Shown here: positions 274 through 5,050 of the stretch, piece after piece
Layout: each line of letters opens with the position of its first letter
Position numbering within the stretch: the stretch's first letter is position 1
Assembly (NCBI GenBank): GCA_016193065.1
Contig: JACPSX010000138.1
Span: forward strand, 1-16,131
DNA: 16,131 nt
From: Candidatus Tectimicrobiota bacterium
Lineage (GTDB): Bacteria; JACPSX01
Direction of reading: 5' to 3'
Position numbers and translations under genes: made by a program
Notes under the pieces: model-generated
Told to the model about the DNA's origin: nothing
Database searches by the model: none
What the model saw: only the letters and a program-made list of their open reading frames with translations

Positions 274-1932
274 GTGCGCCGATTGGTAAACTCCCTTTTC
301 TTCCTGGGCCTTCTTGCCCTCCTGTTGCTTCCCGCATGCAGCGAGGACAAAAAGACAGCGGGGGAAAATCTCTCGGTCTCCAAGCCCAGGCCGGGAGGCA
401 CCTTCCGTCGCCCTTTGCGCAACGATCCCTCGACGCTGGACCCTGCTCACATTACGGATGTCTACGGATCCACTGTCGCTCAGCAGCTCCACGAGGGGTT
501 GATCCAGTTCGACCAGAACCTCAACGTGGTGCCGGCTATTGCCCGTTCCTGGACAGCATCTCGGGACGGGCTCACATGGACCTTTGGCCTGAGACCCGGG
601 GTGCGCTTCCATCACGGGCGAGAAGTCATCGCGGAGGACTTTGTCTACTCCTTCCGCCGCATCCTAAGCCCCCGGACGAAGTCTGAGCTGACCTGGCTCT
701 TTGATCGCATCGCGGGAGCCCCGGAATACATGACTGGTAAGGCCAGCCAAGTCAAAGGACTCGAAGCCCTCGACCGATATACCTTGCGGATTCGACTTTC
801 GGAACCCTTTGCCCCGTTCATCACCCTCCTGGGGATGGCCCAAGCAAAGGTCGTCCCCCGGGAACTTGTGGAGGGCAAGGAATCGTTTTTCGCCAGCCAT
901 CCCGTGGGGGCGGGTCCGTTTCAATTTGCCGGTTGGGAGCGGGGGAAAACGATCCTCTTGGAGGCCAACGAGAACTACTACGAGGGGAGACCCTATCTTG
1001 ACCGCATTGAATTCCGGATCTATGCGGGTCTGCAAGACGAAAGGATCCTGGCTGATTTTGAGGCGGGGCAACTGGATGCCGGCTACATCCCCGGGGAAAT
1101 CGCCCCCCAAAAACTCCAAGAGATCCTGAACACGAAGAGATACCAGCACCTCCGCAAGCCGATCCTGAGTCTCCTCTTCTGGGGAATGAATACGACCAGA
1201 CCCCCCTTCAACGACCTCAGGGTCAGGCAGGCGCTGAATTTCGCTATCAACGTCAAAGCCATTAATGACTATGCCCGAAATGGCCGTTTCGTTCCCGCCC
1301 GTGGAATCCTCCCTCCCGGAATGCCAGGATTCGATCCGGAACTGCGAGTCTACGAGCATGACCTGGAAAAGGCCCGATCCTTGCTGGCCAGCGTGGGCGC
1401 CACAGCCCGAGCTGCACTGCCAGAGATTGAGCTCTGGTCAAACGACAACTCACTGGCGGCCCGGAGGGAGTATGAGGTCCTGCTAAAAAATCTCGAGGAC
1501 TTAAAGATCAAGGGGAAGATCAAACTGGTGCCTGACTGGCCCACCTATGAGGCCGCCCTGAAACGTGGCGATCCCCTGATCTACCGTTACGCCTGGTATG
1601 CCGACTATCCCGATCCCGACAACTTCCTCTACGTTCTCTTGACGCCAAGCAGCAAGTACAATTTCTCGCGCTACAGGAACGGCAAAATCACCGGCCTGCT
1701 CAGTACGGCCCGCCGGGAAACCGATTACCTGAAGCGGGTTTCCCTCTACCGCCAGGCGGAAAGGCAAATCATGGCAGATGCCCCCTGGGTCCCCATCTTT
1801 CATCACACCTTCGAGTATCTCCTCCATTCCTCCGTGAGGGGAATTGAGATCAATGCCCTGGGTGAGCGGTTCATTCCGATGAAGAAGGTCTGGTTTGCGC
1901 CGGGGAATCGAGAAGCTCGTCCCGGGAGCTGA
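274..1932 (+). CDS. ABC transporter solute-binding lipoprotein (family 5, peptide type)
   Basis: A 552-residue extracytoplasmic binding protein of the SBP_bac_5 (OppA/DppA) family, close to the usual 500-550 length. The GTG start follows AAGGGAA at a normal distance. The N-terminus is a lipoprotein signal with lipobox LPAC, so Cys22 would be lipidated; Ser follows, with no Asp retention signal. The family signature is clear: NDPSTLDPAH near 50, then EGLIQFD, and SRDGLTWTFGLRPGVRFHHG with AEDFVYSFRRI near 105-130. Later regions (VRQALNFAINVKAI, YRYAWYADYPDPDNFLY) are also typical. It would capture peptides or similar oligomers for import, but no permease or ATPase genes are in the window. Family 5 also includes nickel-, haem- and sugar-binding members, so the ligand is not proven. 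A histidine kinase gene follows directly. Confidence 0.93.
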   Translation: MRRLVNSLFFLGLLALLLLPACSEDKKTAGENLSVSKPRPGGTFRRPLRNDPSTLDPAHITDVYGSTVAQQLHEGLIQFDQNLNVVPAIARSWTASRDGLTWTFGLRPGVRFHHGREVIAEDFVYSFRRILSPRTKSELTWLFDRIAGAPEYMTGKASQVKGLEALDRYTLRIRLSEPFAPFITLLGMAQAKVVPRELVEGKESFFASHPVGAGPFQFAGWERGKTILLEANENYYEGRPYLDRIEFRIYAGLQDERILADFEAGQLDAGYIPGEIAPQKLQEILNTKRYQHLRKPILSLLFWGMNTTRPPFNDLRVRQALNFAINVKAINDYARNGRFVPARGILPPGMPGFDPELRVYEHDLEKARSLLASVGATARAALPEIELWSNDNSLAARREYEVLLKNLEDLKIKGKIKLVPDWPTYEAALKRGDPLIYRYAWYADYPDPDNFLYVLLTPSSKYNFSRYRNGKITGLLSTARRETDYLKRVSLYRQAERQIMADAPWVPIFHHTFEYLLHSSVRGIEINALGERFIPMKKVWFAPGNREARPGS

Positions 1933-1955
1933 CCCGGGGAAAGAGGAGGCGCCCA

Positions 1956-3842
1956 CTGCAATTTCGGTTTCGGGATCTCTCAATCCACACCAAGCTGGTG
2001 GTGGCGGTCTGTCTCCTGGTGGTTTTGCTGATCAGCGGGATAGCCGTCATTGTAGAACGGGGCGAGCGCCGCGCGCTCATTGACCAGGTGCGCAAGCGGG
2101 CTGTGGCCACGGCCAGCAATGTGGCCGCCGTGAGCACCAGCGCCCTGCTCACCTATAACTACGTGACCCTGGAACAAAACGCCGCCAGAGTGGCCCGGGA
2201 GGAAGACGTTCTCTATGTCATCATCCTGGACAGGGAAGGGAAGGTGGCCGCCCACAGCTCGCGGAGTGAATTGCAGGGAACCGTAATGGCAGATCCCGTA
2301 AGCCGCAGGGCCGGGGCCAGCCGAGAAATCCTGGTGCAGGCAGCGACCTTTTCTGGGACGGCTGATCCTCTCTACGATGTTGCCGTTCCCGTCTACATTA
2401 AAGAATCCCCTGAGAAATGGGGGACGGTTCGCGTGGGGATATCCTTGGGGCCCATGCGCAGGGCCATTGCCCGAAGCCGCCAGGGCATCGCTTTGATGGG
2501 CTTGGTGGCCATCGCCCTGGGGGGGGCCGGCGCCCTCTTGCTGGCTCGCCGAATCACCTCCCCGATTGCCCGGCTCGTGCACGGGGCGGTCGAGGTGGGA
2601 AAAGGAAACCTGGACCAGCAAATCCCTCTCTCTACCGGGGATGAGATCGGAACGCTGGCAAGAACCTTCAACGAAATGACAAACAACCTGCGCACCAGCC
2701 GTCTGTCCGTGGAGTCGGCGCACCGGGAGTTGAAGTCACAATACAAGGAGATTTCTTTTCTCAAGGACTACAACGACAATGTCTTAAAAAGCATGACCAG
2801 CGGCGTCCTTACGCTGGACCTGGGGGGGCGGATTGTCACAGTGAACCAGGCCGCTGTGCAGATCACGGGACTGGCCGCAGAGGATATGGTGGGAAAGCCG
2901 TGCGAACCCCTTTTTCCGGGAAGCCCCGAACTGCCGGAGGCCCTCCTGGACGTCCTCAGAAAAGAGCGCAGAACACCTCAGGTCATCCATCTGAGATATC
3001 CGCGCCCGGACGGCAAGACCCTGTTCCTGGAGATGACTACGGTGGGACTGCAGGAGGAGACCGGAAAGCTAATCGGGGCTCTCGGGGTCATCCGCGATCT
3101 TACCCACGAGCGCGAACTGGAGGAACAATTGCGGCGCGCCGACCGCCTAGCGGCCCTCGGCACGATGGCAGCAGGGATCGCCCACGAAATAAAAAACCCC
3201 CTAACCTCCCTAAAGACCTTCGCGCAGCTTTTTCCCAAGAGGTCCGGCGACCCTGGATTTCAGAAAAAATTTACGGAAATTGTCCCCCACGAACTCGAGC
3301 GCATTCATCTCCTCGCCGAGGATCTCATGGAGCTGGCCCGCCCCACTCAGATGCATCTTCGGCCCGCCGATGTCCACAGCCTGATCGACCGGGTCTTGAA
3401 GACCCACGAGGACATGATGAAGGGGCAGGGGATCGAGTTCCGCTTCCACCCCGAACCCACGTCCCATCCTCAGCCCCTCGTCGACCCGGAGTACCTCTAC
3501 CGCGCCTTGACCAACCTGGTCCTCAACGCAATCCAGGCCATGCCTGCCGGAGGGCTCCTTGAGATCCGAACCGGGGTCGAGGCTTTCACAAACGGGGATC
3601 GAGAAGATCCCCACTTCGTCCTCCACGTTCGGGACACCGGGACCGGGATCCCCGGGGACAAATTGGGAGATCTATTCACCCCCTTCTTCACCACAAAAGC
3701 AAAGGGGACCGGTTTGGGGCTGGCCATTACCCACAAGATCGTGGAAGGCCACGGGGGGCAGATCCGGGTCGAATCCAGGATGGGCATGGGCACCCAGTTT
3801 TCCGTGTCTCTTCCGCTGAGAGGAATCTCCCGCCGCATCTAG
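1956..3842 (+). CDS. Membrane sensor histidine kinase (HAMP-PAS, NtrB/ZraS-like), likely CTG start
   Basis: A two-component sensor kinase. The first ordinary start codon in frame is GTG at 1998, but that falls inside the first transmembrane helix and has no ribosome binding site. CTG at 1956 lies 6 bases after a perfect AGGAGG (1944-1949) and restores a cytoplasmic N-terminus (QFRFRDLSIHTK), giving 628 residues. Order of parts: transmembrane helix about 13-33, periplasmic sensor about 35-170, transmembrane helix about 176-198, HAMP about 199-250, PAS about 270-375, HisKA with phospho-acceptor His410 in AGIAHEIKNPL, then HATPase_c with LTNLVLNAIQAM (N box), DTGTGIPG, FTPFFTTKAKGTGLGLAI and GHGG. 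The H-box and F/G2-box style match NtrB/ZraS kinases, which usually pair with sigma-54 activators. No response regulator gene is adjacent. The downstream region carries a sigma-54 promoter and an NtrC-like site. Confidence 0.93.
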   Translation: MQFRFRDLSIHTKLVVAVCLLVVLLISGIAVIVERGERRALIDQVRKRAVATASNVAAVSTSALLTYNYVTLEQNAARVAREEDVLYVIILDREGKVAAHSSRSELQGTVMADPVSRRAGASREILVQAATFSGTADPLYDVAVPVYIKESPEKWGTVRVGISLGPMRRAIARSRQGIALMGLVAIALGGAGALLLARRITSPIARLVHGAVEVGKGNLDQQIPLSTGDEIGTLARTFNEMTNNLRTSRLSVESAHRELKSQYKEISFLKDYNDNVLKSMTSGVLTLDLGGRIVTVNQAAVQITGLAAEDMVGKPCEPLFPGSPELPEALLDVLRKERRTPQVIHLRYPRPDGKTLFLEMTTVGLQEETGKLIGALGVIRDLTHERELEEQLRRADRLAALGTMAAGIAHEIKNPLTSLKTFAQLFPKRSGDPGFQKKFTEIVPHELERIHLLAEDLMELARPTQMHLRPADVHSLIDRVLKTHEDMMKGQGIEFRFHPEPTSHPQPLVDPEYLYRALTNLVLNAIQAMPAGGLLEIRTGVEAFTNGDREDPHFVLHVRDTGTGIPGDKLGDLFTPFFTTKAKGTGLGLAITHKIVEGHGGQIRVESRMGMGTQFSVSLPLRGISRRI

Positions 3843-3877: not shown

Positions 3878-3903
3878 TGCACAAAAAATTGTGCACTTTG
3901 CAC
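3878..3903. promoter_or_regulatory. NtrC-like palindromic operator (putative enhancer site)
   Basis: TGCACAAAAAATTGTGCA (3878-3895) is a perfect 7-bp inverted repeat around AAAA. An overlapping second palindrome, GTGCA-CTT-TGCAC, spans 3891-3903. The spacing and half-sites resemble the known NtrC site (TGCACC, five bases, GGTGCA). It lies about 180 bp upstream of the sigma-54-type promoter, a normal distance for an enhancer. There is no T run after it, so a terminator is less likely. Confidence 0.55.
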
Positions 3904-4057
3904 AGTTTCACAACATGAGCGGAGCAGGAACTCCACGGGTTCTTTCCCCATCGCTCATCTACCTTTCACTATCTCTACAACAATTTATATATCAACTATT
4001 TCTAGCCAACTTCTGGTCCTCTCCCAGATGATCGTTTTTCTCCCAACTGGGGATAGC

Positions 4058-4074
4058 AGGTACGGTTCTTGCTA
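4058..4074 (+). promoter_or_regulatory. Sigma-54 (RpoN) type -24/-12 promoter
   Basis: AGGTACG-GTTC-TTGCTA matches the sigma-54 consensus TGGCACG-N4-TTGCW. Both invariant elements are present at the right spacing: GG at 4059-4060 and GC at 4071-4072, ten bases apart. Only the first T and the C after GG differ. Transcription would start near 4083, just before the ribosome binding site of the 82-residue gene. Confidence 0.65.
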
Positions 4075-4105
4075 ACTGTCAATTCGGAGAGGGGGAGGGA
4101 GAGAT

Positions 4106-4354
4106 ATGAAAACTGTCCGACATAATGGGGAAAAACTTTCTCCAAAATATACAATCCAGGGGTCCTTCTTCGTCCTGAAAGTCTACCAGCGGCCTGGACG
4201 AAAGGGAGATGTCGTTCATGTGGTTGAGACCACATTTCAGACGGGCGACCGGATCATCAGCGACGGGATGACGGCGGAGGAGGCAATCGGGCGAATGTAC
4301 AGCGCCCTGCCCCTCGCCATTGAATCAAGGGAATTGGGTGAACGGATTCGATAA
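4106..4354 (+). CDS. 82-residue protein of unknown function
   Basis: I do not recognise this family. The ATG follows a purine-rich ribosome binding site (GGGGGAGGGAGAG, about 4090-4102). The product is small, soluble, lacks cysteine and has no signal peptide. Residues 14-46 look like beta strands (YTIQGSFFVLKVYQ, DVVHVVETTFQ), and 48-82 look helical (TAEEAIGRMYSALPLAIESREL), suggesting a compact alpha/beta domain. It is preceded by a sigma-54-type promoter and a distant NtrC-like palindrome, and followed by a nested hairpin with a T run. It therefore looks like a single-gene unit, possibly an output of the kinase encoded just upstream. Confidence 0.7.
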   Translation: MKTVRHNGEKLSPKYTIQGSFFVLKVYQRPGRKGDVVHVVETTFQTGDRIISDGMTAEEAIGRMYSALPLAIESRELGERIR

Positions 4355-4374: not shown

Positions 4375-4445
4375 CCGGCCCCGGGGCTACGAGTCGACCT
4401 TCCGACTTACCCCCCAATGAGCTCTGGGGCCGGCCCTCCCTTTTT
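4375..4445 (+). terminator. Nested hairpin and T run, probable terminator
   Basis: The outer arms CCGGCCCC (4375-4382) and GGGGCCGG (4426-4433) can pair. Inside them lie a GGGG/CCCC pairing (4383-4386 with 4411-4414) and an AGTCG/CGACT stem (4392-4396 with 4403-4407). TTTTT follows at 4441-4445 after seven C/T bases. This layout is more elaborate than a simple terminator and could be a structured 3' element of the 82-residue gene's transcript. Confidence 0.45.
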
Positions 4446-4492: not shown

Positions 4493-5050
4493 ATGAAACG
4501 CTTCTCTATTCCCAGGATTGTTTCCGCCGCCGGTCTATTTATTCTTTGGATTATCAGCCCGGAGATCCTCTGGTCTCAGGAAGCTAGAGGCCAAATTCTG
4601 CAAGGCCAACTCAACATCAATCAAGCATCGGAAATGGACTTCCTGCGACTCCCGGGAGTCGGAGAGGTAACAGCCCGCCGGATCGTGTCCTACCGTCAAC
4701 GGGTCGGAGGATTCAAGTCAATTTTCGAGCTAAGACAGGTGAAAGGGGTGAGCAGCTCTTTGATCCAGCGCATTTCCCCTTACCTGACTCTGGCTGGAGA
4801 CTCCACCCTCAAGCGCCTAGTGGACCTGAATCAAGCCCCGGTCACGACCCTTTCCACCTTGCCCAATATCTCTCCGAAAAAAGCCCGGACCATTGCTTCC
4901 TGGCGAAAGGTAAACGGTGGGTTTCACAGGGTCGAAGACCTCCTCCTCGTCGGAGTCCTCTCCCCATCCGAGTTTGAGGAGTTGCGGGATTGGGTTCTCG
5001 TGGGCCCCATCCCTCTCCCCCGAACTCCGAGCCCCACAGCCAAGCCCTGA
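4493..5050 (+). CDS. ComEA-like protein with two helix-hairpin-helix units
   Basis: A 185-residue protein with an N-terminal hydrophobic segment (about 9-27, signal peptide or anchor) and two ComEA-type DNA-binding units. Unit 1 starts LNINQASEMDFLRLPGVGEV and has LPGVGEVTARRIVSYR at 53-68. Unit 2 starts VDLNQAPVTTLSTLPNIS and has LPNISPKKARTIASWR at 123-138. The tail is Pro-rich. ComEA proteins bind incoming DNA outside the inner membrane during natural transformation, normally with one such pair, so the duplicated form is unusual. In unit 2 the glycines of the hairpin (GVG) are replaced by NIS, so it may be structural. I chose the ATG at 4493 because GGAGGAGAG precedes it; an in-frame ATG at 4451 lacks a ribosome binding site. 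No other competence genes are nearby. Confidence 0.85.
   Translation: MKRFSIPRIVSAAGLFILWIISPEILWSQEARGQILQGQLNINQASEMDFLRLPGVGEVTARRIVSYRQRVGGFKSIFELRQVKGVSSSLIQRISPYLTLAGDSTLKRLVDLNQAPVTTLSTLPNISPKKARTIASWRKVNGGFHRVEDLLLVGVLSPSEFEELRDWVLVGPIPLPRTPSPTAKP

Follow-up and report, generated by a model that had tools for sequence, protein, structure and literature searches.

A recurrent TGCACA-N6-TGTGCA palindrome paired with -24/-12 elements suggests a dispersed sigma-54 regulon that includes a ComEA-family gene

The region between a sensor kinase gene and a ComEA-family gene in the window is, on balance, probably a promoter belonging to a sigma-54 regulon that is dispersed over the genome and serves DNA-uptake and type IV pilus functions. 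The window is the whole stretch of 16,131 nt that was analysed, contig C55 of a 2.9-Mb genome from Candidatus Tectimicrobiota, assembled in 294 contigs and 86% complete. Its features are as follows.

1956-3842, + strand: sensor histidine kinase with sCache_3, HAMP, PAS, HisKA, and HATPase domains, linked to the promoter by adjacency only
3878-3895, no strand: enhancer palindrome TGCACAAAAAATTGTGCA, exact, arms 6 + 6 with N6, predicted to be a complete activator site
3890-3904, no strand: tandem link TGTGCA-N3-TGCACA with CTT as spacer and a third half-site at 3899-3904
4058-4073, + strand: putative sigma-54 -24/-12 promoter element AGGTACGGTTCTTGCT, differing from TGGYACRNNNNTTGCW at one position; the GG is at 4059-4060 and the GC at 4071-4072
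4106-4354, + strand: p82, an open frame for 82 residues with a purine-rich ribosome site as read from the sequence, predicted first gene of the unit
4376-4432, + strand: predicted RNA hairpin of about -33 kcal/mol (z about -3.7 against mononucleotide shuffles)
4493-5050, + strand: ComEA-family helix-hairpin-helix protein (HHH_3, E 3.6e-32; TIGR00426, above cut-off)

The palindrome is exact and lies where the first-pass annotation had placed it. The overlapping second palindrome described there is present as TGTGCA-CTT-TGCACA and ends at 3904, not at 3903; its fourth half-site, at about 3911-3916, is degenerate in the window. Eight exact copies of TGCACA-N6-TGTGCA were observed genome-wide, with 0.06-0.14 expected from base composition (P about 4e-12 or less), together with three copies at one mismatch and two of the backwards-read pattern at up to one mismatch. 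Arm spacings of 0-12 were scanned in the contigs read, and copies occurred at N6 only; the linked TGTGCA-N3-TGCACA was found there four times, with N3 as the sole spacing. As the contigs with sites were picked for N6, the unbiased counts are the genome-wide ones, and these include four exact linked copies, each at a locus with the 18-bp palindrome. In full, the tandem spans 39 bp as a double palindrome, which is perfect at contig C279. Sites repeat at 21 bp, which is two helical turns and fits two dimers bound side by side. A motif search at three mismatches was noisy, with 914 matches vs 572 in the control.

The element AGGTACGGTTCTTGCT carries GG-N10-GC within TGGCACG-N4-TTGCW at one mismatch. 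It is the top -24/-12 match in the window, with 14.5 of 19.6 bits and the next match at 12.7, as scored by a simple matrix built from the known consensus with weights set by us. It follows the palindrome by 180 bp, and the earlier description of an element about 180 bp on with exact GG and GC spacing was right, its coordinates being within one base. A transcription start is expected at about 4084 from the position of the element. At up to two mismatches, the consensus occurs six times in the window with four expected; the window alone is unremarkable, and the case is carried by the genome-wide recurrence of the sites and by their pairing. At four of six loci, the site has an element of at least 14 bits no more than 200 bp away (P about 1e-5 against background):

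C55 (the window): 180 bp from the palindrome, 14.5 bits
C67: 122 bp from the palindrome, 16.5 bits
C259: 115 bp from the palindrome, 14.0 bits
C294: 117 bp from the palindrome, 16.5 bits

All four elements are downstream of the palindrome and each is aimed at the next start codon. The background rate was taken from 135 kb of contigs of the same genome, mostly picked for carrying activator genes and themselves rich in -24/-12 elements in the matrix scan. The background is therefore likely overstated, and the P value for the pairing is conservative. A weaker element (10.7 bits, exact GG-N10-GC) lies 98 bp from the palindrome on C228, ahead of a YifB/ComM gene. On C279, the best element is on the opposite side of the enhancer and not well placed, and none was found near the second C228 palindrome (3167-3184). 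The sites thus have the features of enhancers for sigma-54 activators: they are dyads, usually in tandem, 80-200 bp before a -24/-12 element, and recurrent at promoters. Since the same arrangement recurs genome-wide, the reading of the window element as a genuine sigma-54 promoter served by an activator site upstream, proposed already in the first-pass annotation, is well supported by sequence.

The first gene behind this promoter, p82, had been called uncharacterised, in agreement with the homologue search: no relatives were found in the contig library, viral contigs, Pfam, NCBIfam, or PHROGs, and PDB sequences and plasmids gave matches only at E 0.1 or worse. A single-sequence model has a beta sheet and a C-terminal helix, with pLDDT 75 and a wide spread between models. 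The fold search returned nothing convincing (best Foldseek E 0.6), the best VIA Z, 6.2, is no higher than chance arrangements can give, and no fold is claimed. A HicB-like identity was considered and dropped. Third-position GC is 0.58 in p82 and 0.63 in the ComEA gene vs 0.71-0.75 in neighbouring genes. The ComEA gene starts 138 nt after p82 and is likely the second gene of the unit, presumably co-transcribed with p82, so the earlier picture of a unit with just an orphan small protein as its output probably does not hold; ComEA behind p82 and the regulon had both been missed. The ComEA protein has, by eye, an N-terminal hydrophobic, signal-like segment as in this family, and it scores below the cut-off of the full-length model TIGR01259. 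Between the two genes sits the predicted hairpin. Its T-run begins several bases past the stem, so it is not a canonical terminator, and it is not listed in the terminator scan, whose limit is exceeded by the loop. It may be an attenuator of read-through into ComEA.

Genes behind the other sites were identified by family. On C294, a gene for a type IV pseudopilin of GspH/FimT type is followed by a gene for a PilB-type ATPase, with PilY1 upstream. The C259 gene encodes PAS and a class III nucleotide cyclase, and the C228 gene is YifB/ComM. The C67 target (878-2281, minus strand) is a short RHS-core gene whose product has an RHS-repeat core between a signal-like N-terminus and a C-terminus to which no family was assigned. 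The gene that follows encodes a small protein that looks secreted and belongs to no known family, and the two products may be an effector/immunity pair. Sites were thus observed ahead of a unit with a ComEA-family gene in second place, ahead of YifB/ComM, where the promoter is weak, and ahead of a pseudopilin/PilB locus. These targets point to DNA uptake dependent on type IV pili, and YifB and cyclases have other roles too. ComEC is encoded elsewhere in the genome, on a 4-kb contig without a palindrome site. The second C228 palindrome, also exact, is flanked by the ends of two convergent genes, and neither a promoter nor a target is apparent nearby. At C279 (4115-4516, minus strand), the perfect double palindrome is upstream of a 60-residue ORF between convergent genes; the ORF has cysteine pairs and is zinc-ribbon-like.

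According to the proposed mechanism, a single activator of the NtrC family would bind the 18-bp palindromes as dimers, usually side by side at the 21-bp pitch. From sites 115-180 bp upstream of the -24/-12 promoter, it would loop to sigma-54 RNA polymerase and open the promoter. In the window, this would turn on p82, and ComEA via read-through; the same activator would act on the pseudopilin gene next to pilB, the PAS-class III cyclase gene, and the gene of the secreted RHS-core protein, and probably on YifB/ComM. What we infer from this arrangement is a single activator for all sites, their dependence on sigma-54, and DNA uptake as the output. Several points speak against the regulon: the failure to find rpoN, the hairpin between p82 and ComEA, the ComEC contig without a site, and the two palindromes at C228 (3167) and C279 that it leaves unexplained. 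In addition, YifB is widespread and not specific to competence, and its -24/-12 element is weak. The rpoN gene was not found by PF04552 or PF00309 in the 86%-complete assembly; as 15 strong activator matches are present, an assembly gap is the most likely reason.

The genome has 15 strong matches to sigma-54 activators, several with their own neighbouring kinase, and none was found beside a palindrome among the contigs examined. The regulator on C105 is the first candidate, because it is nearest to NtrC (547.8 bits against TIGR01818 ntrC, just missing the cut-off of 558.6) and has a DNA-binding domain that matches both Fis and the NtrC domain and whose recognition helix contains RNTLRKK; NtrC's box, though, differs in length from the sites here. 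It is conceivable, if rather unlikely, that this NtrC-type regulator, encoded beside a soluble PAS kinase, runs the same sigma-54 regulon under nutrient stress, with DNA uptake as one output of starvation. Its near-miss with the NtrC model and its NtrC/Fis-like domain are consistent with this, as is the TGCAC half-site, which is that of NtrC. The strict 18-bp length of the sites argues against it, as do the lack of nitrogen genes at the exact sites examined and the lack of a palindrome site on the C105 contig. The same half-site is the part of the earlier NtrC-like label that stands, but the length is not: NtrC boxes are 17 bp long (PMC8743547, PMC4987338), whereas all eight exact copies are 18 bp with N6 and do not fit TGCACCAnnnTGGTGCA. 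The NtrC enhancers of enteric bacteria resemble the sites in their TGCAC half-sites and their position far upstream of the -24/-12 promoter; they differ from the tandem sites with 21-bp pitch found here, the targets of which are of the pilus/DNA-uptake type, not nitrogen genes. Judged by its sequence, the operator is neither a 17-bp NtrC box nor the TGACA-N5-TGTCA type of pilA.

The first-pass annotation read the unit as a local circuit, with the kinase next door phosphorylating a sigma-54 activator and p82 as the output; this reading is improbable now. The kinase is indeed of the NtrB/AtoS class by profile matches, as claimed, with AtoS scoring best at far below its cut-off. Its gene ends 36 bp ahead of the enhancer, and among the contigs examined from the same genome, a PilS-like kinase encoded on C61 is its nearest relative. 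The enhancer, though, occurs on at least five other contigs with no such kinase beside the site, so that proximity to the kinase is not required; the window was found to have no response regulator, and ComEA comes after p82. The tie between kinase and sites is one of position. Lower still we place the chance that the palindromes are sites of a dimeric regulator that is not of the AAA+ type, such as a CRP-type protein, with the -24/-12 elements incidental. Palindromes with N6 are common in other regulator families, and CRP-type proteins use N6 spacers; two sites have no well-placed -24/-12 element, and the missing rpoN would fit as well. Such a regulator does not account for the strong elements within 200 bp at four of six loci, which face away from the palindrome toward the gene and lie at an enhancer-like distance. 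The sigma-54 regulon for uptake and pilus functions is preferred.

Among known systems, the AtoC enhancer of E. coli atoDAEB consists of two inverted 20-bp sites, GCTATGCAGAAATTTGCACA (PMC3118216). It is similar in having a pair of neighbouring sites ahead of a sigma-54 promoter, with a TGCACA element inside, and AtoS, against which the window kinase scores best, is the kinase of AtoC. Length and layout of the enhancer differ, however, the AtoS match is far below cut-off, and the targets here are unrelated to short-chain fatty acids. Transformation of Acinetobacter needs PilSR (PMC8088505), and control of pilA by PilS-PilR and sigma-54 has in common with the present regulon the sigma-54 promoter and pilus-linked genes; pilA here carries TGACA-N5-TGTCA instead, and the TGCACA regulon looks like that of a second activator. 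In Ralstonia solanacearum, rpoN1 is needed for competence, which was explained via pilA and PehR, with a sigma-54-dependent activator proposed at pilA (PMC4371752). Competence is under sigma-54 there as well, but the sites found here precede ComEA, pseudopilin, and YifB/ComM genes. In Vibrio cholerae, comEA and comM are co-regulated via QstR (PMC6237807), and the QstR/TfoX regulon likewise joins these two genes, plus genes for attacking neighbours; the Vibrio system runs on a LuxR-type regulator, not on sigma-54, and the RHS-core protein is only a putative toxin.

Sigma-54 control of competence thus has precedent; what would be new is the placement of the sites ahead of comEA and comM. No description of one sigma-54 operator shared by p82-ComEA, YifB/ComM, and pseudopilin promoters came up in the literature searched, which is no proof of absence. 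The link between sigma-54 and competence has so far been mainly through pilA; if the regulon is real, a sigma-54 activator runs the DNA-uptake programme itself (p82-ComEA, pseudopilin, cyclase, and probably YifB/ComM), and both p82 and a poorly sampled lineage gain a role open to testing. The operator is sufficiently specific to serve as a query for this regulon, and for its activator, in other genomes. Also weighing against the regulon, 12 genomes reached via a NAD kinase search have four exact palindrome sites in total, all single, with no tandem copy and no strong -24/-12 element adjoining. The kinase-p82-ComEA block is absent in the genomes nearest by NAD kinase, Rokubacteria with at most 55% identity, where RecN is present. 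A broader idea, which we regard as a long shot, is that an activator other than the regulator of pilA acts via one double-palindrome operator to switch on uptake (ComEA, ComM, and minor pilus) along with cyclic-nucleotide signalling and a secreted RHS-core protein. Sigma-54 would then join the release of DNA from neighbours to its uptake, and p82 would be a new uptake component.

The pilA promoter on C161 (35-82 and 188-203) has its own -24/-12 element, TGGCATGAGGGTTGCT, and upstream of it two TGACA-N5-TGTCA palindromes at a 33-bp pitch, a type absent from the rest of the roughly 200 kb read. With these different palindromes, pilA seems to be under another activator, and the TGCACA operator is not simply a general pilus operator. 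A one-mismatch TGCACA-type site at C161:348 was set aside as chance because it is at the start codon and pilA carries the other palindromes.

On C191 (2249-3262, minus strand), a sigma-54 activator gene beside a membrane kinase is apparently frameshifted or truncated before the DNA-binding domain, and a strong -24/-12 element (minus strand, 1720) comes after it. For the ORF of the window kinase, CTG 1956, which is preceded by AGGAGG, is a more probable start than GTG 1998. The kinase gene forms an operon with the upstream gene of an SBP_bac_5 solute-binding lipoprotein (274-1932), which suggests a binding-protein-assisted sensor.
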